Position numbers and translations under genes: made by a program
The notes under the pieces: generated by a model
Told to the model about the DNA's origin: nothing
The model's input: the letters and a program-made list of their open reading frames with translations, nothing else
Database searches by the model: none
From: Chiridota heheva
Lineage: Eukaryota; Echinodermata; Holothuroidea; Apodida; Chiridotidae
NCBI GenBank assembly: GCA_020152595.1
Contig: JAIGNY010002064.1
Span: 248,001 to 312,000 of the forward strand
Length of the DNA: 64,000 bases
Reading direction: 5' to 3'
Part shown: positions 7,330 to 51,080 of the stretch, piece after piece
How the letters are laid out: each line of letters starts with the position of its first letter
Numbering within the stretch: the first letter of the stretch is position 1

Positions 7330-9240
7330 GTACAGTGTTTATCTTAATTGACTATCAAAGTTAAAATAAATTTACTGTGTGCTTGGCACAAATATCTGTT
7401 TTAAGTTCATATCTATTTCCGAAGAGGACTTGTGTAATACCAAATTGTGAAAGCTTGACTTTTCTCGAATTATGCATATTATGTCTTTTAAAAAATACAT
7501 ATATAATGTTTTGAATGAAAATACTTATAATACTTCATAAACTTTAAAGCAAAAACCTGTGCCAACACATGGAAATACGTGTAAAACCCTGAAAACCTGT
7601 GTCAGAACAATGAAAGAGTTATATAAAAAAAAGTGTGTCAATGCGTGTCTTAATCCTTTTTAAAGTTAAATAAATTCACAGTGGGGTTGGCACAAATATC
7701 TGTTTTAAGTTCATATCTATTTCCTAGAAAGAATTGTGTAATACTAAATTTTGAAAGCTCGACTTTCCTCATATTATGTCTTTTATAAAATACCTATATT
7801 ATATTTTTAAATGAAAATACCTATAATACTTCATAAACTTTTAAGCCCAAAGCCTGTGCTAATACATGGAAATACAGGTAAAACCCTGAAAACATGTGTC
7901 AGAACAATGAAAGAGTTCTGTGAAAAAGTGTGTCAATGCATGTCTTAATCCTATCAAAGTTAAATAAATTCACAGAATCAAGTGGTTGGCACAAATATCT
8001 TTTTAGGTTCACATCTCTTTCTTAGGAAGATTTAAGTGATACCAAATTTTGAGGCTTGACTTTCCTCATATTATATCTTTTACAAAATACATATATTATG
8101 TTTTTGAATGAAAATACCTATAATACTTTATAAACTTTTAAGCCCAAAACATGTGCCAACACATGGAAATACGTGTAAACCCTGAAAACCTGTGTCAGAA
8201 CAATGAAAAAGTTATGTGAAAAAGTGTGTCAATGCGTGTCTTAATCCAATCAAACCTAAATAAATGCACTGTGTGGTTGGCACAAATATCTGTTTTTAAG
8301 TCCATATCTATTTCCTAGGAAGAATTGTGTAATACTAAATTTTGAAAGCTCGACTTTCCTCATATTATGTCATTTATAAAATACATATATTATATTTTTA
8401 AATGAAAATACCTATAATACTTCATAAACTTTTAAGCCCAAAGCCTGTGCTAATACATGGAAATACAGGTAAAACCCTGAAAACATGTGTCAGAACAATG
8501 AAAGAGTTCTGTGAAAAAGTGTGTCAATGCATGTCTTAATCCTATCAAAGTTAAATAAATTCACAGAATCAAGTGGTTGGCACAAATATCTGTTTTAGGT
8601 TCATATCTCTTTCTTAGGAAGATTTGAAGTGATACCAAATTTTGAGGCTTGACTTTCCTCATATTATATTTTTTACAAAATACATATATTATGTTTTTGA
8701 ATGAAAATACCTATAATACTTTATAAACTTTTAAGCCCAAAACATGTGCCAACATATGGAAATACGTGTAAACCCCTGAAAACCTGTGTCAGAACAATGA
8801 AAGAGCTATGTGAAAAAGTGTGTCAATGCGTGTCTTAATCCAATCAAACCTAAATAAATGCACTGTGTGGTTGGCACAAATATCTGTTTTTAAGTCCATA
8901 TCTATTTCCTAGGAAGAATTGTGTAATACCAAATTTTGAGGCTTGACTTTCCTCATATTATATCTTTTACAAAATGCATATATTATGTTTTTGAATGAAA
9001 ATACCTATAATACTTCATAAACTTTTAAGCCAAAATCATGTGCCAACACATGGAAATACGTGTAAAACCCTGAAAACCTGTGTCAGAACAATGAAAGAGT
9101 TATGTGAAAAAGTGTGTCAATGCGTGTCTTAATCCTATCAAAGTTAAATAAATTCACAGGATCAAGTGGTTGGCACAAATATTTGTTTTAAGTTCATATC
9201 TATTTCCTAGGAAGAATTGTGTAATTTTGAAGCTTGACTT
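7330..9240. repeat. ~297 bp satellite in unit A, seven monomers
   Basis: Monomer starts marked by 'ggcacaaatat' lie near 7385, 7689, 7988, 8279, 8579, 8873 and 9172 (spacing about 291-303). Each holds 'gcttgactttcctcatatta', 'cctataatacttcataaact', 'acacatggaaatacgtgtaa' and 'gtgtgtcaatgcgtgtctt'. Monomers 2-3 and 4-5 are near-identical dimers (tails 'agaatcaagtgg' then 'gcactgtgtgg'), a two-monomer higher-order repeat. Confidence 0.85.
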
Positions 9241-9880
9241 TCCTCAGAATTATTACTTTTAATATTGAACAAGTAGAGAAAGTGACTGGTTTACATGGTC
9301 TTTTAAAGAGATAATTATATTTTACATCTTTATCTAAAACCAGTGGCATATCTAAAAGGAAGGAAAAGGGCCTTGTCAGGAATTTCCAAAAATCCAGAAA
9401 ATTTGCACAACAGAAAAATCAGTATGTTGAATTGTTTTGGTAATCCTGATGAAAGCCATCTTGAGAAAAATTAATAGAATATTTCCGAAAATTGAATCTT
9501 TAAGTTAGGCCTACTTAGCCGGTTAGAGTTATCAAGTTATTTCCTAACATTTTAGATGTTTGTCCTCAAATTATCTTACTCAAAAACTCCAAAGCTTTCC
9601 TTAAAATATCATAACTTGTCCTAAAAATTTCTGAAGTATCTTTTCTAAAATTATGCAACATTTTCCCCAAAACTTCTCAGGTTTTCCTCAAAATATCTTA
9701 ATTTTCTTTAAAATGTTCTTATTTTCCCCTCAAAATACCCAAAGTCACTTTTCCTCATATTTCAAAATTCTCAAAGTTTTTCTCTTAGAATTTCATTTCT
9801 TCTATGTGTAGGGGAGGGAGGGAGGGTAAACTGGGCTTTTATTCATGATCCCCACTCCCCCTTCCTTTAAAAAAGTCTTA

Positions 9881-12073
9881 GCTAAGTCACCGCCTGATTC
9901 ACTGGGTAACTCTATTGTGTTTTAACGAGATTAGTGTAATCCTGCTTTCTTTAAACAAAAACACACTTCACACCTCTTTACTGTCAGAGACCACAACAAT
10001 CCAGCAGGTAGTGCATAATAAGGCAAAGAAAGCCAAGCAGGCAGTCACAACAAAGGCTTCTGTGGAGATCACTTTAGTGAAACCAGGTGAACCTATACTA
10101 TAGGTGCATGTAGCTTGCACAAAGTACAGTGTTTATCTTAATTGACTTTCAAAGTTAAAATAAATTTACTGTGTGCTTGGCACAAATATCTGTTTTAAGT
10201 TCATATCTATTTCCGAAGAGGACTTGTGTAATACCAAATTGTGAAAGCTTGACTTTTCTCAAATTATGCATATTATGTCTTTAAAAAAATACATATATAA
10301 TGTTTAGAATGAAAATACTTATAATACTTCATAAACTTTAAAGCAAAAACCTGTGCCAACACATGGAAATACGTGTAAAACCCTGAAAACCTGTGTCAGA
10401 ACAATGAAAGAGTTATGTGAAAAAGTGTGTCAATGCGTGTCTTAATCCTTTTAAAGTTAAATAAATTCACAGTGTGGTTGGCACAAACATCTGTTTTAAG
10501 TTCATATCTATTTCCTAGGAAGAATTGTGTAATACTAAATTTTGAAAGCTCGACTTTCCTCATATTATGTCTTTTATAAAATACCTATATTATATTTTTA
10601 AATGAAAATACCTATAATACTTCATAAACTTTTAAGCCCAAAGCCTGTGCTAATACATGGAAATACAGGTAAAACCCTGAAAACATGTGTCAGAACAATG
10701 AAAGAGTTCTGTGAAAAAGTGTGTCAATGCATGTCTTAATCCTATCAAAGTTAAATAAATTCACAGAATCAAGTGGTTGGCACAAATATCTTTTTTAGGT
10801 TCATATCTCTTTCTTAGGAAGATTTAAGTGATACCAAATTTTGAGGCTTAACTTTCCTCATATTATATCTTTTACAAAATACATATATTATGTTTTTGAA
10901 TAAAAATACCTATAATACTTTATAAACTTTTAAGCCCAAAACATGTGCCAACACATGGAAATACGTGTAAACCCCTGAAAACCTGTGTCAGAACAATGAA
11001 AAAGTTATGTGAAAAAGTGTGTCAATGCATGTCTTAATCCAATCAAACCTAAATAAATGCACTGTGTGGTTGGCACAAATATCTGTTTTTAAGTCCATAT
11101 CTATTTCCTAGGAAGAATTGTGTAATACCAAATTTTGAGGCTTGACTTTCCTCATATTATATCTTTTACAAAATGCATATATTATGTTTTGAATGAAAAT
11201 ACCTATAATACTTCATAAACTTTTAAGCCAAAATCATGTGCCAACACATGGAAATACGTGTAAAACCCTGAAAACCTGTGTCAGAACAATGAAAGAGTTA
11301 TGTGAAAAAGTGTGTCAATGCGTGTCTTAATCCTATCAAAGTTAAATAAATTCACAGGATCAAGTGGTTGGCACAAATATTTGTTTTAAGTTCATATCTA
11401 TTTCCTAGGAAGAATTGTGTAATTTTGAAGCTTGACTTTCCTCAGAATTATTACTTTTAATACTGAACAAGTAGAGAAAGTGACTGGTTTACATGGTCTT
11501 TTAAAGAGATAATTATATTTTACATCTTTATCTAAAACCAGTGGCATATCTAAACGGAAGGAAAGGGGCCTTGTCAGGAATTTCCAAAAATCCAGAAAAT
11601 TTGCACAACAGAAAAATCAGTATGTTGAATTGTTTTGGTAATCCTGATGAATGCCATCTTGAGAAAAATTAATAGAATATTTCCGAAAATTGAATCTTTA
11701 AGTTAGGCCTACTTTGCTGGTTAGAGTTATCAAGTTATTTCCTAACATTTTAGATGTTTGTCCTCAAATTATCTTACTCAAAAACTCCAAAGCTTTCCTT
11801 AAAATATCATAACTTGTCTTAAAAATTTCTGAAGTATCTTTTCTAAAAAAAATGCAACATTTTCCCAAAAACTTCTCAGGTTTTCCTTAAAATATCTTAA
11901 TTTTCTTTAAAATGTTCTTATTTTCCCCTCAAAATACCCAAAGTTACTTTTCCTTAAATTTCAAAATTCTCAAAGTATTTCTCTTAGAATTTCATTTCTT
12001 CTGTGTGTAGGGAAGGGAGGGTAAACTGGGATTTTATTTATGATCCCCACTCCCCCTTTCTTCAAAAAAGTAT
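9881..12073. repeat. Tandem mega-repeat, unit B
   Basis: About 2.19 kb, over 90% like unit A by eye, in the same order: leader (9881-10100) with the uninterrupted empty site at about 10093-10105, five satellite monomers starting near 10179, 10480, 10779, 11072 and 11370, then the 'tactgaacaagtagagaaag' to 'cactccccctttc' segment. It lacks the extra dimer and the transposon found in unit A. The open frame at 9915-10103 is the leader read through and is not a gene. Confidence 0.85.
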
Positions 12074-12435
12074 AGCCAAGTCACTGCCTGATTCACTGGG
12101 TAACTCTATTGTGTTTCAACGAGTTTAGTGTAATCCTGCTTTCTTTAAACAAAAACCACACTTCACACCTCTCCACTGTCAGAGACCACAACAATCCAGC
12201 AGGTAGTGCATAATAAGGCAAAGAAAGCCAAGCAGGAAGTCACAACAAAGGCTTCTGTGGAGATCAGTTTAGTAAAATTAAGTAAACCTATACTATAGGT
12301 ACATGTAGCTTGCACAGAGCAGTGTCCATCTTAATTGACCATCAAAGTTAGATAAATTCACTGTGTGGTTGGCACAAATATCTGTTTTAAGTTCATATCT
12401 ATTTCCTAGAAAGAATTGTGTTATACCAAATTTTG
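12074..12435. repeat. Tandem mega-repeat, unit C (partial)
   Basis: The leader restarts at 'agccaagtcactgcctgatt' and runs through an empty transposon site ('cctatactataggtac') into one partial satellite monomer with 'ggcacaaatatctg' (about 12369). It stops near 'gacttttcttaaaattatt', and sequence after that is unrelated. Confidence 0.8.
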
Positions 12436-13330
12436 AAGCTTGACTTTTCTTAAAATTATTTTGTTAATATACACCGTATGTTGGAGTCAAAATTTTGAAT
12501 ACATTTTAAGTTTTAGTTTCACTAAAAATCTATTACATTGGAGCTGAAAGTCATGTGCACAGGTAATGGAACCGGGGGAGGGGAATTTGGCAGGAGCTAG
12601 GGCATGTTACCCCACACTTTTCTGAAAAATGACAAACGAAGAGTCCCCTTTCAAAAGTGAAAAGTGCAGGCCCTCAATAACAGTTGAAGGTGCAATTACT
12701 GGTGGCATGCGTAGCTTTGAAAAAAAAAAATGAAATTAAGTGCCCCTTTTAAAATGAAGTTCTGCATTAACTCTGTTGATTTGGATTCACTATATCTACA
12801 GACTGGAGGACATATGTCTATGACTTAAGAAGTAGCCCCTAAGAGGCTGTGCCACCCTCACCTAAGCTTCCTATGCACCCCTGGTCATGTGGTTATTCAA
12901 ACTTTCATGATTGACTTCTCTCACAAGATACGTAGAGTGAATGTTTGGTTCCATTCAATAATTACACAGTAGGAACTTATGAAGAATGTAGTGTCAACTA
13001 AATGTACAAGGCATAAAGAGGCAATACATTAAAATAACATTAAAAATCTCTGATAATTGGATGTGCAAGATTCACAAGTTTTATTGGTTTACCTTTATTA
13101 TGCAGCTACACTACTAAAATTTGCATGCTTTTTCATATATTGTGAACATTAATTTAAGTTTGTCCAGTAGCGTGGCTAGGCACTGGCATTTGGGAGGGAG
13201 GAGGGGGAGTTTGGCAGGGTTTTGCGGGGGAGAGGTTAATGATGCAATTAATAATTACAATATATTGTGAAACTTGGGGCTCATGCCTCCGCCCTCTCTG
13301 GCTATGCCCCTGTCTCCTCTGCCTATACCT
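12436..13330. other. Intergenic, no gene seen
   Basis: No open frame of interest. A 'ccagtagcgtggctagg' string near 13168 resembles the recurrent 'ccagtggcgta' motif found elsewhere in the window (see findings). Confidence 0.5.
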
Positions 13331-31439: not shown

Positions 31440-32399
31440 TAACAAGCTTAGCAAGCAACACCTCATTGTCAGAAGGGGTTACCATGGCAGATAAGTTGCT
31501 TTTCCAATGATTTGGAATAAACCAAAATAATAAATAAAATGTAATACATTGATATTTTAATACTTCTTAAATTCCTCATATGTACAAAAATCACCATTAC
31601 TAGGAATAAAGTCGGCAATATATTTAACCCCTCTGCTATATAGTTTATTATCAAAAATTGTATGAGTGTCAATATGGATATGGTGATTATTCCAGATTAT
31701 CTGGGAACTGAAATTATTCTCTGGACTGGATTAAGAGAGATTACTTGAGGCAACAACTACCTGCCATATAAAATCATTATGAATAACTTGAATTTCAGAC
31801 TTAATGAGATTACAGCGGAAGAGAAAAATTTTACCAAAGGGTTTAAGGTGGAAGTCAAAAAATACTTTTCAAGGTCATGCACCCAGGTAATGCCTAACCC
31901 ATGCCACCTTTAACACATCAAAGAAATATTAACCATGTTTAGACCGCCCAGGTTACAAGGAATCACCATAGTGGTCCTTCTTACCTTGTCAGGTTTACCT
32001 GACCAAATAAAGTTAAAAACGGTTCTCTCAACTTCCTTAATGAAGGTCGGGGAAGTGGTAGGAAGGACAGAGAGTAAAAATACTAACTGGGACAGACCAA
32101 ACATCTTTACTAGAGTAATCTTACCAATGGGTGTTAAATCCTGCTTGGAACATAAATTTAACTGGGATTTCAGACGAGAAAGCTTCGGTAGATAGTTAAG
32201 GTTAAAGAAATCTGAACCACGGTGACAAATAAACACCTCAAGCATTTAATTGGACCAAGAATAATTTTAAAACTTAGATTACTGAAACATGAAGGAATAA
32301 TCATTAACAAGGAGACCAAGAGGAAACAGCTTTGACTTATCAACAGTAACAGTTAAACTAGCTACAGAGCCAAACTCATTTAGAATATAAATAACAACG
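31440..32399 (-). pseudogene. LINE RT thumb and downstream region
   Basis: After the SINE the LINE resumes as 'ILNEFGSVASLTVTVDKSKL' then 'FPLG' (32310-32390), followed by 'LNLCSKQDLTPIGKITLVKM' (near 32130), 'VFLLSVLPTTSP', 'TVFNFIWSGKPDKVRRTTM', 'CNLGGLNMVNI' and further 'NNHHIHIDTHTIFDNKLYS', 'RGVKYIADFIPSNGDFCTYE' (31555-31690). The '+GK+..+K', 'F.W..K..+++' and 'GGL' marks are typical of L1-like ORF2 after the RT. Two frames at 31910-32245 and 31469-31672 cover much of it. Confidence 0.88.
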
Positions 32400-32406
32400 T
32401 TAACAG

Positions 32407-32694
32407 CTAAAGCTAAATCCATCCAAGCCATTAGGCTCATTGAGGCGGTGCTTATCCCCAGTTTCCATGGCGCAAGCGGATGAGAGTACATTACTCCTCC
32501 TGGACGGGATGCCAGTCCATCGCAGATTAACTCCCCAGCAGTGCTGGTACTCATTTTACAGCTGAGTGGACTGAAATAAGTAGAGTAAAGTGTCTTGCTC
32601 AAGGACACAATGCAGCGCTCACGACGGGAATTGAACTCGGTACCTCTCGAATACGAGCACGACACCTGAACCACTGAGCCACAGCACCTCTACT
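32407..32694 (-). mobile_element. tRNA-derived SINE inside the LINE
   Basis: On the minus strand it starts 'gaggtgctgtggctcagtgg', with an RNA polymerase III A box 'tggctcagtgg' (32671-32681) and B box 'gagttcaattcc' (32627-32638), about 33 bases between them. The tRNA-like head is followed by a body with 'tgtccttgagcaagacactt' (a phrase common to invertebrate SINE bodies) and a tail of short 'tttagc' repeats. Flanking 'ttaacag' at 32400-32406 and 32695-32701 is a probable 7 bp target duplication. It lies just after the LINE YADD-type box. The open frame 32279-32674 is a SINE/LINE chimera with no gene meaning. Confidence 0.85.
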
Positions 32695-33295
32695 TTAACA
32701 GAGGTAATACTGTTCTCAATAAATAAGAGTGGTGTCATCAGTGTACTGTGCTACTTTAAATTTATAATTACAAAGAACAAGGCCGTGAAAACTTATATCA
32801 TTTCTTAACCTTATAGATAAAATCTTAGCACACATAATAAAGATAATGGACTGAATGGACAGCCCTGTCTTACACCTCGATTGATACTATAAACCCAGAG
32901 GCATAACCATGAACACATGCTGAAGCATTGGAATACAAGGCATGAAACCAGCGCCTGACGTCATTACAAAATGAAAAGCTTGAAGAGTATAGTCAATGAA
33001 GGACCATTTGAGCATATCAAAGGCTTTATGAAAATAAAGAAACAATAGAAAACCAGGGATGGCTCATTTGTCAGGAAGCTCAATAACATCTAAATTTGTG
33101 CGAATACTTTCCCCTGAGCTGCCCCTTAATAATAGCTGTTTGGTCTGGGTGGATTTTATAATTTAGACCCCTTTAATATGTTCAGCAATACATTTAGCCC
33201 CTACTTTATAGTCAGTATTTAGCAAAGAGATGGGCCTCCAATTTTCAATCTTGGCTAAATCCTTATCAGGTTTGGGCAACAAAGAAATTAACTTC
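32695..33295 (-). pseudogene. LINE reverse transcriptase core up to the catalytic box
   Basis: Minus-strand order: 'LISLLPKPDKDLAKIENWRP', 'ISLLNTDYKVGAKCIAEHIK' (33190-33295), 'LYFHKAFDMLKWSFIDY' (near 32970-33035; the usual D..KAFD with first Asp changed), 'CKTGLSIQS', then 'AQYTDDTTLI' (32726-32757), the catalytic YADD box with Ala replaced by Thr. A frameshift follows the box, then 'ENSITSVK' up to the SINE. Confidence 0.88.
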
Positions 33296-35247
33296 TACTT
33301 TGCTCCTGTGAGATATAACAAGAGAAGAAAGAACAAGATATAACCAAAAAGAAAGAACTGCTTCTACTCTGCTCCTGTGAAATTTAAACAGAAAAGAAAG
33401 CTTCTGTGAGATATAACCAAAAAGAAAGAAACCAGAGAAAAGAAAGAACTCCCTATTCTGCTCCTTATCTGAACTCCCTACTCTGCTCCTGTGAGATATA
33501 ACCAAAAAGAAAGAACTCCCTACCTACTGTGAAATATAACCAGAAAAGAAAGAACTTCTGCTCCTGTGAGATATAACCAGAAAAGAAAGAACTCCTACTC
33601 TGTGAGATATAACCAGAAAAGAAAGAACTCCCTATTCTGCTCCTGTGAAATATAACCAGAAAAGAAAGAACTCCCTACTCTGCTCCTGTGAGATATAACC
33701 AGAAAAGAAAGAACTCCCTACTCTGCTTCTGTGAGATATAACCAGAAAAGAAAGAACTGCCTACACTCTGCTCCTGTGAGATATAACCAGAAAAGAAAGA
33801 AATCCCTACTCTGCTCCTGTGAGATATTACCAGAAAAGAAAGAACTCCCTACTCTGCTCCTGTGAGATATTACCAGAAAAGAAAGAACTCCCTACTCTGC
33901 TCCTGTGAGATATAACCAGAAAAGAAAGAAATCCCTACTCTGCTCCTGTGAGATATTACCAGAAAAGAAAGAACTCCCTACTCTGCTCCTGTGAGATATA
34001 ACCAGAAAAGAAAGAAATCCCTACTCTGCTCCTGTGAGATATTACCAGAAAAGAAAGAACTCCCTACTCTGCTCCTGTGAGATATAACCAGAAAAGAAAG
34101 AAGTCCCTACTCTGCTCCTGTAAGATATAACTAGAAAAGAAAGAACTCCCTACTCTGCTCCTGTGAGATATAACCAGAAAAGATAGAATCCCTACTCTGC
34201 TCCTGTGAGATATAACCAGAAAAGAAAGAACTCCCTACTCTGCTCCTGTAAGATTTAACCAGAAAAGAAAGAACTCCCTACTCTGCTCCTGTGAGATATA
34301 ACTAGAAAAGAAAGAATCCCTACTCTGCTCCTGTGAGATATAACCAGAAAAGAAAGAACTCCCTACTCTGCTCCTGTAAGATTTAACCAGAAAAGAAAGA
34401 ACTCCCTACTCTGCTCCTGTGAGATATAACTAGAAAAGAAAGAACTCCCTACTCTGCTCCTGTGAGATATAACCAGAAAAGAAAGAACTCCCTACTCTGC
34501 TCCTGTGAGATATAACCAGAAAAGAAAGAACTCCCTACTCTGCTCCTGTGAGATATAACCAGAAAAGAAAGAACTCCCTACTCTGCTCCTGTGAGATATA
34601 ACTAGAAAAGAAAGAACTCCCTACTCTGCTCCTGTGAGATATAACTAGAAAAGAAAGAACTCCCTACTCTACTCCTGTGAGATATAACCAGAAAAGAAAG
34701 AACTCCTACTCTGCTCCTGTGAGATATAACTAGAAAAGAAAGAACTCCCTACTCTGCTCCTGTGAGATATAACCAGAAAAGAAAGAACTCCCTACTCTGC
34801 TCCTGTGAGATATAACTAGAAAAGAAAGAACTCCCTACTCTGCTCCTGTGAGATATAACCAGAAAAGAAAGAACTCCCTACTCTGCTCCTGTGAGATATA
34901 ACTAGAAAAGAAAGAACTCCCTACTCTGCTCCTGTGAGATATAACCAGAAAAGAAAGAAGTCCCTACTCTGCTCCTGTGAGATATAACTAGAAAAGAAAG
35001 AACTCCCTACTCTGCTCCTGTGAGATATAACCAGAAAAGAAAGAACTCCCTACTCTCTGATATAACTAGAAAAGAAAGAACTCCTACTCTGCTCCTGTGA
35101 GATATAACCAGAAAAGAAAGAAGTCCCTACTCTGCTCCTGTAAGATATAACCAGAAAAGAAAGAACTCCCTACTCTGCTCCTGTGAGATATAACCAGAAA
35201 AGAAAGAACTCCCTATTCTGCTCCTGTGAGATATAACCAGAAAAGAA
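33283..35247. repeat. 43 bp minisatellite inside the LINE RT, ~45 copies
   Basis: Unit 'aactccctactctgctcctg' followed by 'tgagatataaccagaaaaga' and 'aag'. Variants include 'ataactag', 'atattacc', 'gaagtccc' and shortened units near the 33283 end. On the minus strand one unit reads as 'FWLYLTGAE', which is the LINE sequence expected between 'FWNDLG' and 'LISLLPKPDKD', and LINE motifs resume directly on both sides. The array therefore looks like a tandem expansion of LINE coding sequence rather than an inserted foreign repeat. Since 43 is not a multiple of three, each unit shifts frame. Confidence 0.92.
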
Positions 35248-35249
35248 GC

Positions 35250-35765
35250 ACAATGCAAAGACCCAACTAAGACATCCCTAGATCATTCCAAAACACCGGA
35301 TAAAACTTGGCTGGAAAGCCATCAGTACGCGGGCATTTGTTTTTAGACATAGTAAAAAGAGCATTTTTTACTTTTCTAGAGAAAACATGCCCTCACAGCG
35401 ACCGCACTCCATGTCACTGAGCTTATCAAAGTAAGGAAGACTGGTAATTCATTAATATTACTGGAGTCAGGGAGTTTCAACAATAAAGGGGGCTGTAAAA
35501 ATTAATCTCTGCATTTAGAATATCACTGGAACTAGAGATGACATTGCCGTCATCAAGCCTGAGAGAATTAATAGTATTATAACTACGGTTCTGTTTCTGG
35601 AGATTAAGGAAGTAGCGAGTACCCCTTTCACCCATCTCCTTACCACATGACCCGTGAACAAACCATAATCCCTTTCACCCTTCTATCATAAATAGCCTGC
35701 AGCTTATCTTCAGCTGAATCAAGACGCTCTCTATTAGCCAGCGTGGCATAGAAATATAAATACGC
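35250..35765 (-). pseudogene. LINE reverse transcriptase, N-terminal region
   Basis: Minus-strand pieces: 'LYFYATLANRERLDSAEDK', 'LQAIYDRRVKG', 'ERGTRYFLNLQKQNRSYNT', 'SLRLDDGNVISSSSDILNAE' and 'SKNKCPRTDGFPAKFYPVFW' (35283-35345), then 'NDLGMS' at the edge of the minisatellite. The 'G.RGT+YF.NL.K' and 'NK.PGTDGF.AEFY..FW' patterns are standard for L1-like ORF2. Stops and frame changes are present. Confidence 0.85.
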
Positions 35766-35784
35766 TCCACATTACTAATTTCTT

Positions 35785-37065
35785 ACATTACATTCTTTTT
35801 GTACACTCTGTTAACCCTATCCCTCCATTGAGCTTACGCATTAAATCAGACCTCCTCCATCTCGGCATCAACCCAGCCACTCTTGGCACCTTCTTCTGGC
35901 CCACTTTTCCTCCTTGGGCCACCCCCTCCCTTCTATCCACCTGGGCCTCTCCACTCATTACAAAACCAAAACCCACCCTAACCTCTTCATCAATCTCCAC
36001 AACCAAATCAAAAACCAACTCTCAAACTACACCTCCATCTATACTGTTGGCTCGAAGGAAGACAACTGCTGCTGCCGTCATCCAAGACATCAAGCTCAGT
36101 AGCAGACTTCCTGACCACTCATCCATCTTTTCAGCAGAAGCAAAGATCATCCTCCTCACCCTCAACTTTATTGAGTACTCTCTGCTCAGCCACTTTGCTA
36201 TCTTCTCTGACTCCATGGCTGTTCTTTCTTCTTTTCTCAATCTTAAATGAGATACTGTAGACTTAACATCCCACCTCCTCCTCCGGAAAATCCTTTTACC
36301 CACCCTCTGCAGGAAAAGTATTCTTTTCTTTTGGATACTTAGCCATGTTGGGATTCTTAGTAATGACAGGGCTGATGTAACCGCTAAGCTTTCCCTCAAC
36401 CTCCCTCTACCCCATTTCCCAAAACCCTCTCTGACATCAAACTGCTTATCGCTTCCCTTGTTTGTGACCGCTGGCAAACCTCATGGGACTCCTAAATTGA
36501 TAACAAACTCCACATCATCCAGCCCACCATTCCGATCAAACCCACCATCAACAACCTTTCTCATGTCAACAATGTTCATATTACCCGTTTTAGAATAGGT
36601 CACACCCACCTCACTCACTCCCACCTCCTTATTGCCTTCCCCCAACCCCTCTGCAGCAATTGACATTGCACCCTCACAGTCCATCACGTTCTCCTTGCTT
36701 GCCCCCTGTACAACCTTTCCAGAGCTTCCCTCGCTCCCCACAACTCAATTGCCCAGTTCTTCCAGAAAAACCCTCCGGATAAAATTATCTCCTTCCTTCA
36801 TCTTGCTTCCCTCTACAACCATATTTAGTCCTCCTCTTCCACCCCCCCCCCCCTCCCCTCCCCTCCCCCTCTCTCTCTTTTTTTTCTTCACCCATGCACC
36901 TCCTCTCTCGATCCCAGCTCTGACTTTTAGTTCTTGTATTTCTCTCATTCTCCCCCTGTTTTCTTTTCTTCCTACCTTTTAGAATGAATCTAACCTCTCA
37001 GGCACAATTTGACCCTCTTCGTCGTGGTGCCGTTAAGCTCTCATCAAGCAAACAAACAAACTTAT
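35785..37065 (+). mobile_element. RNase H-bearing LINE, 3' portion, inserted into the L1-like LINE
   Basis: Plus-strand remains of a LINE C terminus in an I/Jockey-type arrangement. RNase H motifs in order: 'YTVGSK' (TDGS with catalytic Asp changed to Val, 36040-36057), 'SAEAKIILLTL' (Glu), 'IFSDSMAVLSS' (Asp, near 36209), stop at 36248, then 'LSHVGILSNDRADVTAK' (His). A C-terminal region follows with 'TRFRIGHTHLTHSHL', 'C.LTVHHVLLACPLYNLSR' and a pyrimidine-rich 3' UTR ending near 'caaacaaacaaac'. The 5' end is truncated near 35785. The flanking L1-like protein resumes on both sides, showing insertion into it. No clean target duplication was found. Confidence 0.8.
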
Positions 37066-37715
37066 ATTTTCACCAGCGTATTTTATGCTATTTGAGATAA
37101 CATTAAATTTGATAAGATCTAAGAGAAAGTTATAATTTTTATTACCATGAGATACACGAACATTGTTGATAACATTTTGAATTTTAGTTACGTACTGGGG
37201 GTCATCTAACATAGAGGTGTTTAATTTCCAGTAACCTTTATCTCTTGGCCTCTTTGACAAAGCAATTTCCAATGTCACAGCAGAGTGGTCTGATTGAAGG
37301 CTGGGAAGAACAGAAATATCACGCCTTGATTATAGGACTTAACAGGTAATAAGAAAAAAGTCTAAACGGCAACAAATATTTGTATCCTCACCAGAAAAAC
37401 ATGTAAAACCGTGATCATTTAGGAAAAGGTCTCTCCAGATGTCGATCAGATCAAAATCAAACATTAAATTCAACAGTACTTCACGAGCATTATAATGGGT
37501 TTAGGATTACCCCCTTTCTTGTCCTTACTAAGATCTAATACAAGATAAAAGTCTCCGCCATTATAATATTATCAGAAGAATGATCATGCAAACTGTCATA
37601 GGCCTAAGTGCTTCTAAAGAAGGATACATTATCAAAGTTTGGAGCACAAACATTTCATACCGTATACTACATATCACAGATCAAAATGTTAATAACAAGA
37701 AGACAAACATTATCA
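37066..37715 (-). pseudogene. LINE endonuclease (APE-type), C-terminal half, and linker
   Basis: In minus-strand order: 'CAPNFDNVSFF' (expected 'YAPN'), 'GGDFYLVLDLSKDKKGG' (the conserved GGDFN with Asn changed to Tyr, near 37510-37560), 'ARE.LLNLMFDFDLIDIWR', 'CCRLDFFLIT', then 'PSLQSDHSAVTLEIAL' with the catalytic-site SDH (about 37275-37300), and the linker 'RDKGYWKLNTSMLDDPQYV'. The enzyme would nick target DNA. Frameshifts and a stop lie near 37590-37700. The best-kept frame is 37033-37278. Confidence 0.85.
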
Positions 37716-40700
37716 TCATGATATGCTCAACTTGGGGTTACGTAAGATACAAACACCCTGACTTGCCGAGGTGCCATGGGAGAAAGCTCACTCATTGTGC
37801 CAAACATTCTGTGTTTACAGTTGAGTGAGTTGCTGGCAACAATTTTTGATGCTGCATTTTGTTTTTGGCATAACTATGAAAACACTGTCTCCTTTAATCA
37901 CATCATTTAACCCCCAGGCATTGAGGGTGCAAAAGTAATCAGATTACTCATCGAGATACAATGAAAGGGAAAATACCAGACTTGCAAGCCTCTATACACA
38001 GCTGCAAAAAAGCGGTACGTTTAAAAAAAGTCTATATATAGACATTTAGCAAATTTGTTGTTTATGAATTGTTGGACCAGGGAGTTGTTACTTTACAGCT
38101 CCCTGGTTGGACATGCTTGGTTCAGATCCATTATAATCTTTCCAGATAGCTGCTTTCTTGTTGAACATGTAAGACCTGTTTTTTCCTGAAGGGAAGGAGG
38201 AGGGGGAAGGTGGAATTCACATGATTCTAAAAGTGGTAGGAGTGTGCAGCCCATAACCCAAGAAACATACCCACAGTATGACATAAGTGTTGATACCTTT
38301 AGTTTGAAGTTATACAATTTTGATAGCTACAGTATGAAAGAACTTATCTTTGATACTTGCAGTATAAAGTATTCTATAAGAGTATTGTTAAAATGAACCA
38401 GCAGCTCAAAATTAACTGGGTAAAACAGCATTATTTGGAACCTACACTACAAAAATAATGGAAAAAAAGACACCTGCAATACAAAAATAATGAAAAATCG
38501 TGTACGTGTTAACAGCCTTCGTTTGTCATAAAGCGACCTTAAGGAATATACTTATTGTCTCTTTGAGTAGCATATGCACAGTATTATCACTTCTTCCCTA
38601 TAGGAATATAACTGTATAAAAGTGCACAATATTATTTTTGTTATGAGAAAAAGAAAAGTACTGCAGAAAGGGATATAAACTATTTAATTACAAACTTATG
38701 ACAAACAAAGTCTGTCAACATACTTTTCATGAAAAAAAGTGTGAAAGTGTGAAAATGCCTCAAAGTATGTATAATAAAATAGAATATTTTGACAGCTTCT
38801 GAAAATTGATCAGAAAATTCTTGAAATATAACTTGTTTTTAAATGCATAAATAATTTGAAAAGCATAGTAAAAGCTTATGGACAATTTTTAACAGTCTGA
38901 ATTTCTAATAAGGATGTGAAAATGTGCACAAAGACTTCTAAAGCAAATTTTATGATTAGTTTTCAAGATTGGTAAAAATGTTATGAAGAAAGAACTCTTA
39001 TATACTACACAGTAGTGTATATTCTATAGTTTCTTTAAAGCAATTACTTATAAAATTACATGATGACATATCAAAAGGATGATTTATGGCAATTATTGTG
39101 AATTGTTAAAAAGGGTTTGTAGTGCTTCCTGAAAAAGGAGAAATAATTGTAGTGCACAAAAATATCTTACTTCCATATATTATGATTCGAAAAGTATGCT
39201 TGTTTGGTATAGTTTGATCAATTTGTTTTTCTTTGTCTCATTACTCTTATTGCTGTAATTTGAGTCTCAGTGTTCCCGTGAGCGTACTTCAGGCAGGAAA
39301 TGTTGAATATCGATAAATATCAGGTGTTATAGGAAATTGTCTTCAACGAATTTGATTCATATTTTTCTTGTGGATTTGATTTCTGTAATTAGTACTGTAT
39401 TTGTAATTAATCATATTGCTGTATTATTGAATGATAATCTTGTATTTTCAGCAAGATATCATTGCCTGAGGTTACTTTATATTAAATAGGTTTTCTCTTC
39501 TTTGGCTTAGAATACACTGTTTTGAACTACAGTATAATGTGATTCCTATGTGTATACAAGTTTCATTTGATTCTGGGGAATGTTAAAATATTAAACGTTC
39601 TGAGATGTATAAACTATGGCATTAAACATTACATATGGATTACAAATGTTTAAATATCAACGGCAAAAAGGCACAGGAAAGGGCTCATGAAAGGTGAAAA
39701 TAGAAAAAAAGGTTACCAACCTTAAATCTAACTCTAATATACTAAATAAGAAGAAAACAGAACTTGTGCATAATATAAAAAAAACATCCATAGATTTAAA
39801 TTTACAAAGTAAATCATCAGAATGAATTACCACGGAACGATGCTTTTGAGGTGTGGAAGAGTATTTTGCCTGAATAAGATTTTCCTAAGTTTTAAAGGTT
39901 TTGCCTGATTTTCATAGAATTTTGATACAAAAGTAAAGTATGCGGAGGACATTTTTTAAATTTTCCACATATTATCGCCCTTCCTTTGCCTTTTTGGCTG
40001 AATATATGTTGATATTGCCTGAGTTCCATTATATTTTAGCACAGAAAGTGTAGTATGAAAGATATTAACGATAGTCACTATTTATTTATTTATTTATTTT
40101 ATTAGGCACCAGCTTCTGATGTTCCACTGATGCCATCGTTCAAATTTCTTACATTTCAAGAGCTGACAGAAGCAACCATTCCTCTGCTCCCAAGTGATTT
40201 AGAATATTGGAAGACATTTGAAAAGAAAAAGAATGCACCAAACAATTGGAAGCCATGAGTTAGATTGAGTGAACAGAACAAATGAAGGTCTGATGTCAAT
40301 CTTATTTAATAAACTTTCTATATGCCAGTCATTTTCCAACAAACTTGTGATATCTTTACAACGTGTGATATCTTTACAACTTGTTAAACCCTGAATGGAA
40401 AAATATATCAAAGTCACGTCTGGACAGTTCTGCTGGTCTTCTTGTCCTATATACGATGAACATGTCTGACCATGACCTATTAATCTGTAAAGGTATATGG
40501 ACAGGTAGATTCAACATTTGCTAAATAGATTGAAATTCCACTAAAAAACGAGGAAAGCAAAATTTTTATTAAAATCGGTTAAAAATTGGCCATTTTACAG
40601 CTTTTTAAAGAATTTTGAGCAAAGATGGGCAAATATGTTAATTTGTGTCTTACTCTTGTGATGTATGAACGGCTGGGACATAGTCTCTATTTTAGTATGT

Positions 40701-41854: not shown

Positions 41855-43225
41855 ATTAGAATACTATAGCATCGTGATGAAGGATTCTGAGGTTGCTCTT
41901 AATGCATCAACCAGGTATTAGAATACTATAGCATTGTGATGAAGGATTCTGAGGTTGCTCTTAATGTATCAACCAGTTATTAGAATACTATAGCATTGGA
42001 TGAGAGATTCTGAGGTTGCTCTTAATGCATCAACCAGGTATTAGAATACTATAGCATCGTGATGAAGGATTCTGAGGTTGCTCTTAATGCATCAACCAGG
42101 TATTAGAATACTATAGCATCGTGATGAAGGATTCTGAGGTTGCTCCTAATGCATCAACCAGGTATTAGAATACTATAGCATGTGATGAAGGAGTTGCTCT
42201 AATGCATCAACCAGGTATCAGGTATTAGAATACTATAATGCATCAGGTATTAGAAATGAAGGATTCTGAGGTTGCCCCTAATGCATCAACCAGGTATTAG
42301 AATACTAAAGCATCGTGATGAAGGATTCTGAGGTTGCTCTTAATGCATCAACCAGGTATTAGAATACTATAGCATCGTGATGAAGGATTCTGAGGTTGCC
42401 CCTAATGCATCAACCAGGTATTAGAATACTAAAGCATCGTGATGAAGGATTCTGAGGTTGCTCTTAATGCATCAACCAGGTATTAGAATACTATAGCATC
42501 GTGATGAAGGATTCTGAGGTTGCTCTTAATGCATCAACCAGGTATTAGAATACTATAGCATTGTGATGAAGGACTCTGAGGTTGCTCTTAATGCATCAAC
42601 CAGGTATTAGAATACTATAGCATCGTGATGAAGGATTCTGAGGTTGCTCTTAATGCATCAACCAGGTATTAGAATACTATAGCATCGTGATGAAGGATTC
42701 TGAGGCTGCTCCTAATGCATCAACCAGGTATTAGAATACTATAGCATCGTGATGAAGGATTCTGAGGTTGCTCTTAATGCATCAACCAGGTATTAGAATA
42801 CTATAGCATTGTGATGAAGGATTCTGAGGTTGCTCTTAATGCATCAACCAGGTATTAGAATACTATAGCATCGTGATAAAGGATTCTGAGGTTGCTCTTA
42901 ATGCATCAACCAGGTATTAGAATACTATAGCATTGTGATGAAGGACTCTGAGGTTGCTCTTAATGCATCAACCAGGTATTAAAATACTATAGCATCGTAA
43001 TGAAGGATTCCGAGGTTGCTCTTAATGCATCAACCAGGTATTAGAATACTATAGCATCGTGATGAAGGATTCTGAGGTTGCTCTTAATGCATCAACCAGG
43101 TATAAGAATACTATAGCATCGTGATGAAGGATTCTGAGGTTGCTCTTAATGCATCAACCAGGTATTAGAATACTATAGCATCGTGATGAAGGATTCTGAG
43201 GTTGCTCCTAATGCATCAACCAGGT
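41855..43225. repeat. 62 bp minisatellite, ~22 copies
   Basis: Unit 'aatgcatcaaccaggtatta' + 'gaatactatagcatcgtgat' + 'gaaggattctgaggttgctc' + 'tt'. Most copies differ by one or two bases; a scrambled, partly deleted stretch lies at about 42175-42265. It ends sharply at 'aaccaggtcatactg'. No open frame crosses it. Confidence 0.96.
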
Positions 43226-49949: not shown

Positions 49950-51080
49950 TCCACATTTATTTGGTCCACAACATCTTACCAAAGCATTAACCATCAAGCC
50001 AAGGCTCAAGAGGTCCGGTTGCTACACCAACAATCGATATTCCACTGGCTATGGACATCTTACTAAAGCTACCAAGCCAAGGCCAACCAAGTCAGTTCTC
50101 GATCCCCACTGATATTTCACTGGTCCACTTCACTGGTCCACAACATCTTACTAAAGCATTAACCACCAAGCCAAGGCTCAAGAGGGCCGGTTTCAAGTCA
50201 GCTCTAGACTGGGCTACATTAATGATTGATCCCCACAGTGATATTCCACTGGTCCATTTCACTGGTCCACAACATCTTACTAAAGCATTAACCACCAAGC
50301 CAAGGCTCAAGAGGTTCGATTGCCAAGTCAGTTCTAGACTGGGCTACATCAATGATCGATCCCCACAGTGATAATTTCACTGGTCCCCTTCACTGGTCCA
50401 CAACATCTTACTAAAGCATTAACCATCAAGCCAAGGCTCAAGAGGTCCGGTTGCCAAGTCAGTTCTAGACTAGGCTACATCAATAATCGATCCCCACAGT
50501 GATATTCCACTGGTCCACTTCACTGGTCTACAACATCTTACTAAAGTATTAACCACCAAGCCAAGGCTCAAGAGGGCCGGTAGCCAAGTCAGCTTTCAGA
50601 CTAGGCTACATCAATAATCGATCCCCACAGTGATATTCCACTGGTGCAATTCACTGGTCCACAACATCTTACTAAAGCATTAATCACCAAGCCAAGGCTT
50701 AAGATGTCCGATTCCCAAGTCAGCTATAGACTTGGCTACATTAATGTTCGATTCCCACAGTGATATTCCACTGATCCACTTTACTAGTCTACAACATCTT
50801 ACTAAAGCATTAATCACCAAGCCAAGGCTTAAGAGGTCCGATTGCCAAGTCAGCTATAGACTTGGCTACATCAATGTTCGATTCCCACAGTGATATTCCA
50901 CTGATCCACTTCACTAGTCTACAACATCTTACTAAAGCATAACCACCAAGCCAAGGCTCAAGAGGACCGGTTGCCAAGTCAGCTCTGGACTATAGGGTAC
51001 ATCAATGATTCATCCCCACATGCCACTGGTTCATTCCACTGGTCCACTCCCCATGTCCACAATATCTTAGTAAATCATTA
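49950..51080. repeat. ~130 bp satellite, about nine copies
   Basis: The anchor 'ccacaacatcttactaaagc' recurs near 49966, 50149, 50271, 50399, 50529, 50659, 50791, 50923 and (diverged) 51058. Each unit also has 'accaccaagccaaggctcaa', 'gaggtccggttgccaagtca' and 'gatccccacagtgatattcc'. The first interval is longer (~183 bp) with an extra piece. Frames at 49912-50371 are repeat translations. Confidence 0.93.

Follow-up and report, generated by a model that had tools for sequence, protein, structure and literature searches.

The 43 bp minisatellite of Chiridota heheva described here is a single-locus array that very probably arose when 43 bp of the reverse transcriptase (RT) coding sequence of a LINE, shortly before the motif PKPDKD, were duplicated in tandem within one dead and already diverged L1-like copy. 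This origin can be read clearly because the ancestral piece is still present, once only, in other copies of the same LINE in the genome. The array lies in a stretch of 64,000 nucleotides (contig JAIGNY010002064.1, positions 248,001 to 312,000), which we call the window; its features are collected in Table 1.

TRF reports the array at 33471-35247, with period 43, 42.0 copies, 93% matches and a score of 3081, and wraparound alignment on the minus strand extends it to 47 unit rows. A minisatellite of about 2 kb with a 43 bp unit, as given in the preliminary description, is thus borne out, and the unit falls within the 10-100 bp size range of tandem units in TE-derived minisatellites. At high coordinates the array is clean right up to the first unit, and unit variants alternate along its length, with three-unit blocks that recur, for example in decomposition rows 20-25. 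Unit divergence was compared for the 31 of 42 units found that have the exact length of 43 (lag values there follow list order and carry no weight here); these comprise 12 distinct sequences, with a mean pairwise difference of 3.8%. Is the length of the array an artefact of assembly? Long repeats are prone to misassembly, and the array is known from a single assembly, but the variants are ordered, blocks are repeated among the units, and each flank has one 100% match in the genome search, so that an artefact seems very unlikely.

Table 1. Positions in the window of the array, its host LINE and the adjoining repeat
Feature	Position	Strand	Basis
Further 3' piece of L1-like ORF, 111 aa open frame	31910..32245	-	Match to LINE-1 ORF2p, E 4.6e-9
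Younger dispersed repeat that has inserted into the LINE (SINE-like by eye)	32500..32698		Genome search with lower-flank query
RT coding part of the LINE downstream of array (LISLLPKPDKDLAKIENWRPISLLNTDYK...), containing stops and frameshifts	32696..33288	-	Translation, ORF2p match, genome search
43 bp minisatellite, ~47 units	33289..35249	-	TRF and unit decomposition; minus-strand consensus CTTTCTTTTCTGGTTATATCTCACAGGAGCAGAGTAGGGAGTT
Degenerate end of array, 3' with respect to the LINE, where units have deletions	33289..33625 (about)	-	Decomposition rows 39-47, gapped or degenerate
First unit, joined to LINE 5' flank	35207..35249	-	Decomposition and alignment to other copies
LINE coding sequence upstream of array (...DGFPAKFYPVFWNDLG...), frameshifted	35250..35815 (upper edge approximate)	-	Translation, genome search
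Putative endonuclease end of this LINE	37160..37400	-	Weak match to ORF2p 222-260, E 0.82; right order

On the minus strand FWNDLG stands immediately 5' of the array and LISLLPKPDKDLAKIENWRPISLLNTDYK immediately 3' of it, in agreement with the earlier reading of FWNDLG before and LISLLPKPDKD after the array. The 5' flank reads ...DGFPAKFYPVFWNDLG, and then the frame shifts; at the upper edge the longer LINE matches stop at query 564-575, that is, at about 35811-35822 of the window. Translation and protein matches place the flanks in the RT coding region of an L1-like LINE, read on the minus strand; the copy has stops and frameshifts and is dead. The 3' flank piece matches human LINE-1 ORF2p 514-551 (E = 2.7e-6). 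When the 5' flank, one unit in the frame that gives FFSGYISQEQSR and the 3' flank were joined in a 97 aa query, the match to ORF2p was gapless over 86 residues (E = 2.3e-9), a score helped by construction, as the frames and one X were chosen by the analyst. The spacing of this ungapped alignment has room for a single unit only, but the residues that come from the unit show little likeness to ORF2p. The RT pieces of the window LINE are in the same order as in L1-like non-LTR retrotransposons, represented by human LINE-1 ORF2p, and the spacing across the site fits one unit, but human LINE-1 is a distant relative, and the window copy is dead. Among nine LINE pieces compared with Pfam, one gave an RVT_1 match of 18.5 bits, below the cut-off of 29.6; the other eight matched no RT family and seven matched no family at all. 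A sub-threshold DUF5105 match to one piece (E 0.012) was taken as chance. The 97 aa query found no confirmed relative in the viral_contigs, genome_contigs or plasmids collections.

What does the site look like in other copies of the LINE? Both array flanks were searched against the window's own genome (1.10 Gb, 3744 contigs), and at least 23 other places with the LINE were counted by hand from the lower- and upper-flank queries. Two of these, 11 kb apart on C3267 and in the same direction, may be the two parts of a single copy that was interrupted; neither has the full site, so that the count of spanning copies is unaffected. At all 16 places where both sides could be joined and aligned, one unit-like stretch is found where the window has the array, in some with small indels, and a seventeenth copy that spans the site, L039, also has a single unit-like stretch. 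All 17 spanning copies among the at least 23 places thus carry the unit-homologous stretch at one and the same position, which is the outcome that the preliminary description had proposed to look for between the two motifs. L041 ends inside the stretch, and five places are without the site (C2716, C3384, C1373, C1515:582837 and C3267:2957173). Translation, genome searches and the alignment of copies agree that the array is bordered by LINE on both sides, and in the alignment the unit ends pass directly into the LINE on either side.

Of the 18 copies compared, 10 (L003-L008, L010, L022, L025 and L039) read through the stretch into PKPDKD without a change of frame. In L039 the in-frame reading across the stretch into PKPDKD is FAFFCGHVSREQSTGLISLLPKPDKD, and by hand count DLG and PKPDKD are 28 residues (84 bp) apart; the L039 piece aligned with ORF2p only from PKPDKD onward (E 0.036). 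Comparison of frames with these copies corrects the earlier reading of the unit as FWLYLTGAE, which is in the wrong frame; the ORF frame gives FFSGYISQEQSR. The motifs had also been thought to be normally about as far apart as the array is long, which holds for one unit, given the 84 bp in L039, but not for 2 kb.

Might a satellite from elsewhere have been inserted into the LINE, its likeness to RT being due to chance? The array is long, and of the three frames in which the unit can be read on the minus strand one contains a stop, as such an origin would allow. We reject it as highly improbable, since single-unit copies are present at the homologous site in all the spanning relatives, the LINE flanks run on from the unit ends on both sides, and a three-unit query against the 1.10 Gb genome gave the window locus as the sole candidate, with no second array found at the sensitivity of the search. 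That query did not report single diverged units, and so it informs on arrays only. TRF likewise found no 43 bp array at 44 other loci (L002-L008, L010-L046). Neither result that had been named in advance as contrary, spanning copies devoid of the stretch or an array unlinked to the LINE, was found, and the earlier view that no foreign DNA is needed is upheld. A different proposal is that the array is part of a LINE subfamily and was brought in ready-made by retrotransposition. Tandem repeats inside retrotransposons have been reported (PMC7004042 and PMC3305785), but L010, the best-scoring upper-flank match among those listed, has one unit. With no second locus found by the three-unit query, we reject this proposal too, as extremely unlikely.

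When was the array born? Of the 43 columns of its consensus, 7 depart from the majority of the other copies, and two of these sit at the unit junction. The remaining five differences (unit positions 10, 15, 18, 26 and 33) are common to the first unit, the last unit and the array consensus. Two of these substitutions occur in 0 of 16 other copies, and the rest in 3 of 16, 2 of 16 and 1 of 15; L010 carries none of the four that it covers. For the LINE flanks of the window, differences from the majority are at 26 of 304, 21 of 318 and 14 of 260 columns, where columns with fewer than 6 copies or a majority below 60% were skipped (304 of 311, 318 of 323 and 260 of 264 kept). If birth was recent, 2.97 changes are expected in 43 bp and 5 were observed (P(>=5) 0.18); P falls to 0.018 if the birth is set at half the age of the copy, and to 0.001 if it is set at a quarter. 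Because the five substitutions are common to the first, last and consensus units against the majority of copies, the birth of the array, or its last rebuilding from a single unit, appears to have come late, in a LINE copy that had already decayed. Of course homogenisation, or collapse and regrowth, could spread private changes to both end units and make the birth look later than it was. The earlier proposal of birth inside a retrotransposon ORF therefore stands for the LINE coding origin, but not for a working ORF: shared substitutions and flank divergence point to a late, decaying copy.

How might the first duplication have been made? We suppose a local replication or repair error, perhaps aided by two TTTCTTT repeats that flank the segment. 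Among the 16 other copies, 8 have TTTCTTT on both sides of the stretch, at a spacing of 38-49 bp, and in 5 of these 8 the pair is 42-44 bp apart. In the control for direct repeats, shuffled stretches of 454-694 bp gave 0.17-0.34 seven-base pairs each at a spacing of 42-46 bp, and among five copies tried the TTTCTTT pair was found in two, other pairs in one (two overlapping matches), and none in two. Because of the shuffle control and this mixed result, the pair is suggestive only as a cue to the origin. Simple slippage between the TTTCTTT repeats predicts a junction of GTTTAA then TTTCTTTTC, whereas the unit junction observed is GTT then CTTTC, which lies off the repeat. The first two-unit junction would have been GTTTAATTTCTTTTC under slippage on TTTCTTT and GTTCTTTC under break repair. 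As the observed junction is not the exact product of TTTCTTT slippage, break repair, by filled-in overhangs or blunt joining, is about as likely a source of the first duplication, at a shade under an even chance once the origin from the LINE's sequence is granted. Against break repair, the TTTCTTT pair does flank the segment at close to the unit length in the copies just mentioned, and one deletion and one substitution would convert the slippage junction to the observed one.

However it began, later growth would have proceeded by exchange or slippage, one to three units per step, since variants alternate and three-unit blocks recur. A unit of 43 bp does not preserve the reading frame, so that already the first duplication would have caused a frameshift. 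No sign of function was seen in this copy with its stops and frameshifts, and the array is most likely a neutral product without function.

Other repeats adjoin the array. The dispersed repeat inserted in the LINE has matches in at least 24 other places, 92-95% identical across all or almost all of query 1-201, and many LINE matches in the lower-flank search start at query 195-196. The edge of another repeat interrupts the LINE at 35813-35860, where 48 bp are found at 94-98% in at least 19 other places. A plus-strand ORF at 35828-36250 is RNase H-like by eye, with no Pfam match; four window ORFs were without a Pfam family, and a tRNA scan of 32000-38000 found none. Elsewhere in the window, two arrays with a 293-298 bp unit (TRF) occupy 7352-12459 within a local duplication, of which 7943-10267 and 10136-12459 are 94% alike, and further arrays are at 42000-42300 and 50300-50600. 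Minisatellites (period 7-150, at least 4 copies) cover 6762 of 64000 bases in the window versus 7139 of 104627 in 31 other loci, which adjoin repeats and are not a random sample.

Two further tandem arrays were seen near repeats of these kinds. At L043 3246-5308, about 0.5 kb from the LINE copy L010/L043, there is an array of about 2 kb with a 50 bp unit that is tRNA-SINE head-like by eye, and at G000:C2428:578346-578806 the tail of the dispersed repeat (query 99-192) is present three times in tandem, at a spacing of about 90 bp, beside a longer copy. These two arrays hint that dead TE copies in this genome often become tandem arrays by one shared route, the window being one of many births, a generalisation that we consider rather unlikely.

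The process itself is known. The preliminary description held that such births are seldom caught, but TE-derived arrays are not rare in print: at least 7,276 human arrays, at least 23% of minisatellites and satellites, are TE-derived according to PMC3389668. As in our case, a part of a TE was turned into a tandem array by local duplication; the human arrays differ in genome and element, in that most of the unexplained ones have two units versus about 47 here, and in that 95% unit identity was required. By the same account, human arrays with short flanking repeats mostly have repeats of 7 bp, and postulated mechanisms account for only 6% of the human TE-derived arrays. The model of Haber and Louis (1998), as described in PMC6947457 and PMC3389668, has short direct repeats (5-10 bp) that flank the segment which becomes the unit. 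TTTCTTT flanks our segment likewise, but the junction is not the exact slippage product. Arrays derived from LINEs, SINEs and LTR elements are tabulated in PMC6947457, including PROsat (LINE-1) and the chicken Cen satellites (CR1-C). These are LINE-born tandem repeats, as here, but they are named satellite DNAs, whereas the window has a single locus whose short unit derives from RT coding sequence. Among open-licence papers, searched with few terms, no title was found on this LINE segment.

TE-derived minisatellites are thus well documented, and the window array is a new and unusually legible case. The birth of a minisatellite is hard to study, as the single-copy ancestor is in most cases unavailable. 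At this locus the two boundaries can be read, together with 17 relatives that have one unit and a relative date for the birth, so that it can act as a test case for models of initiation.
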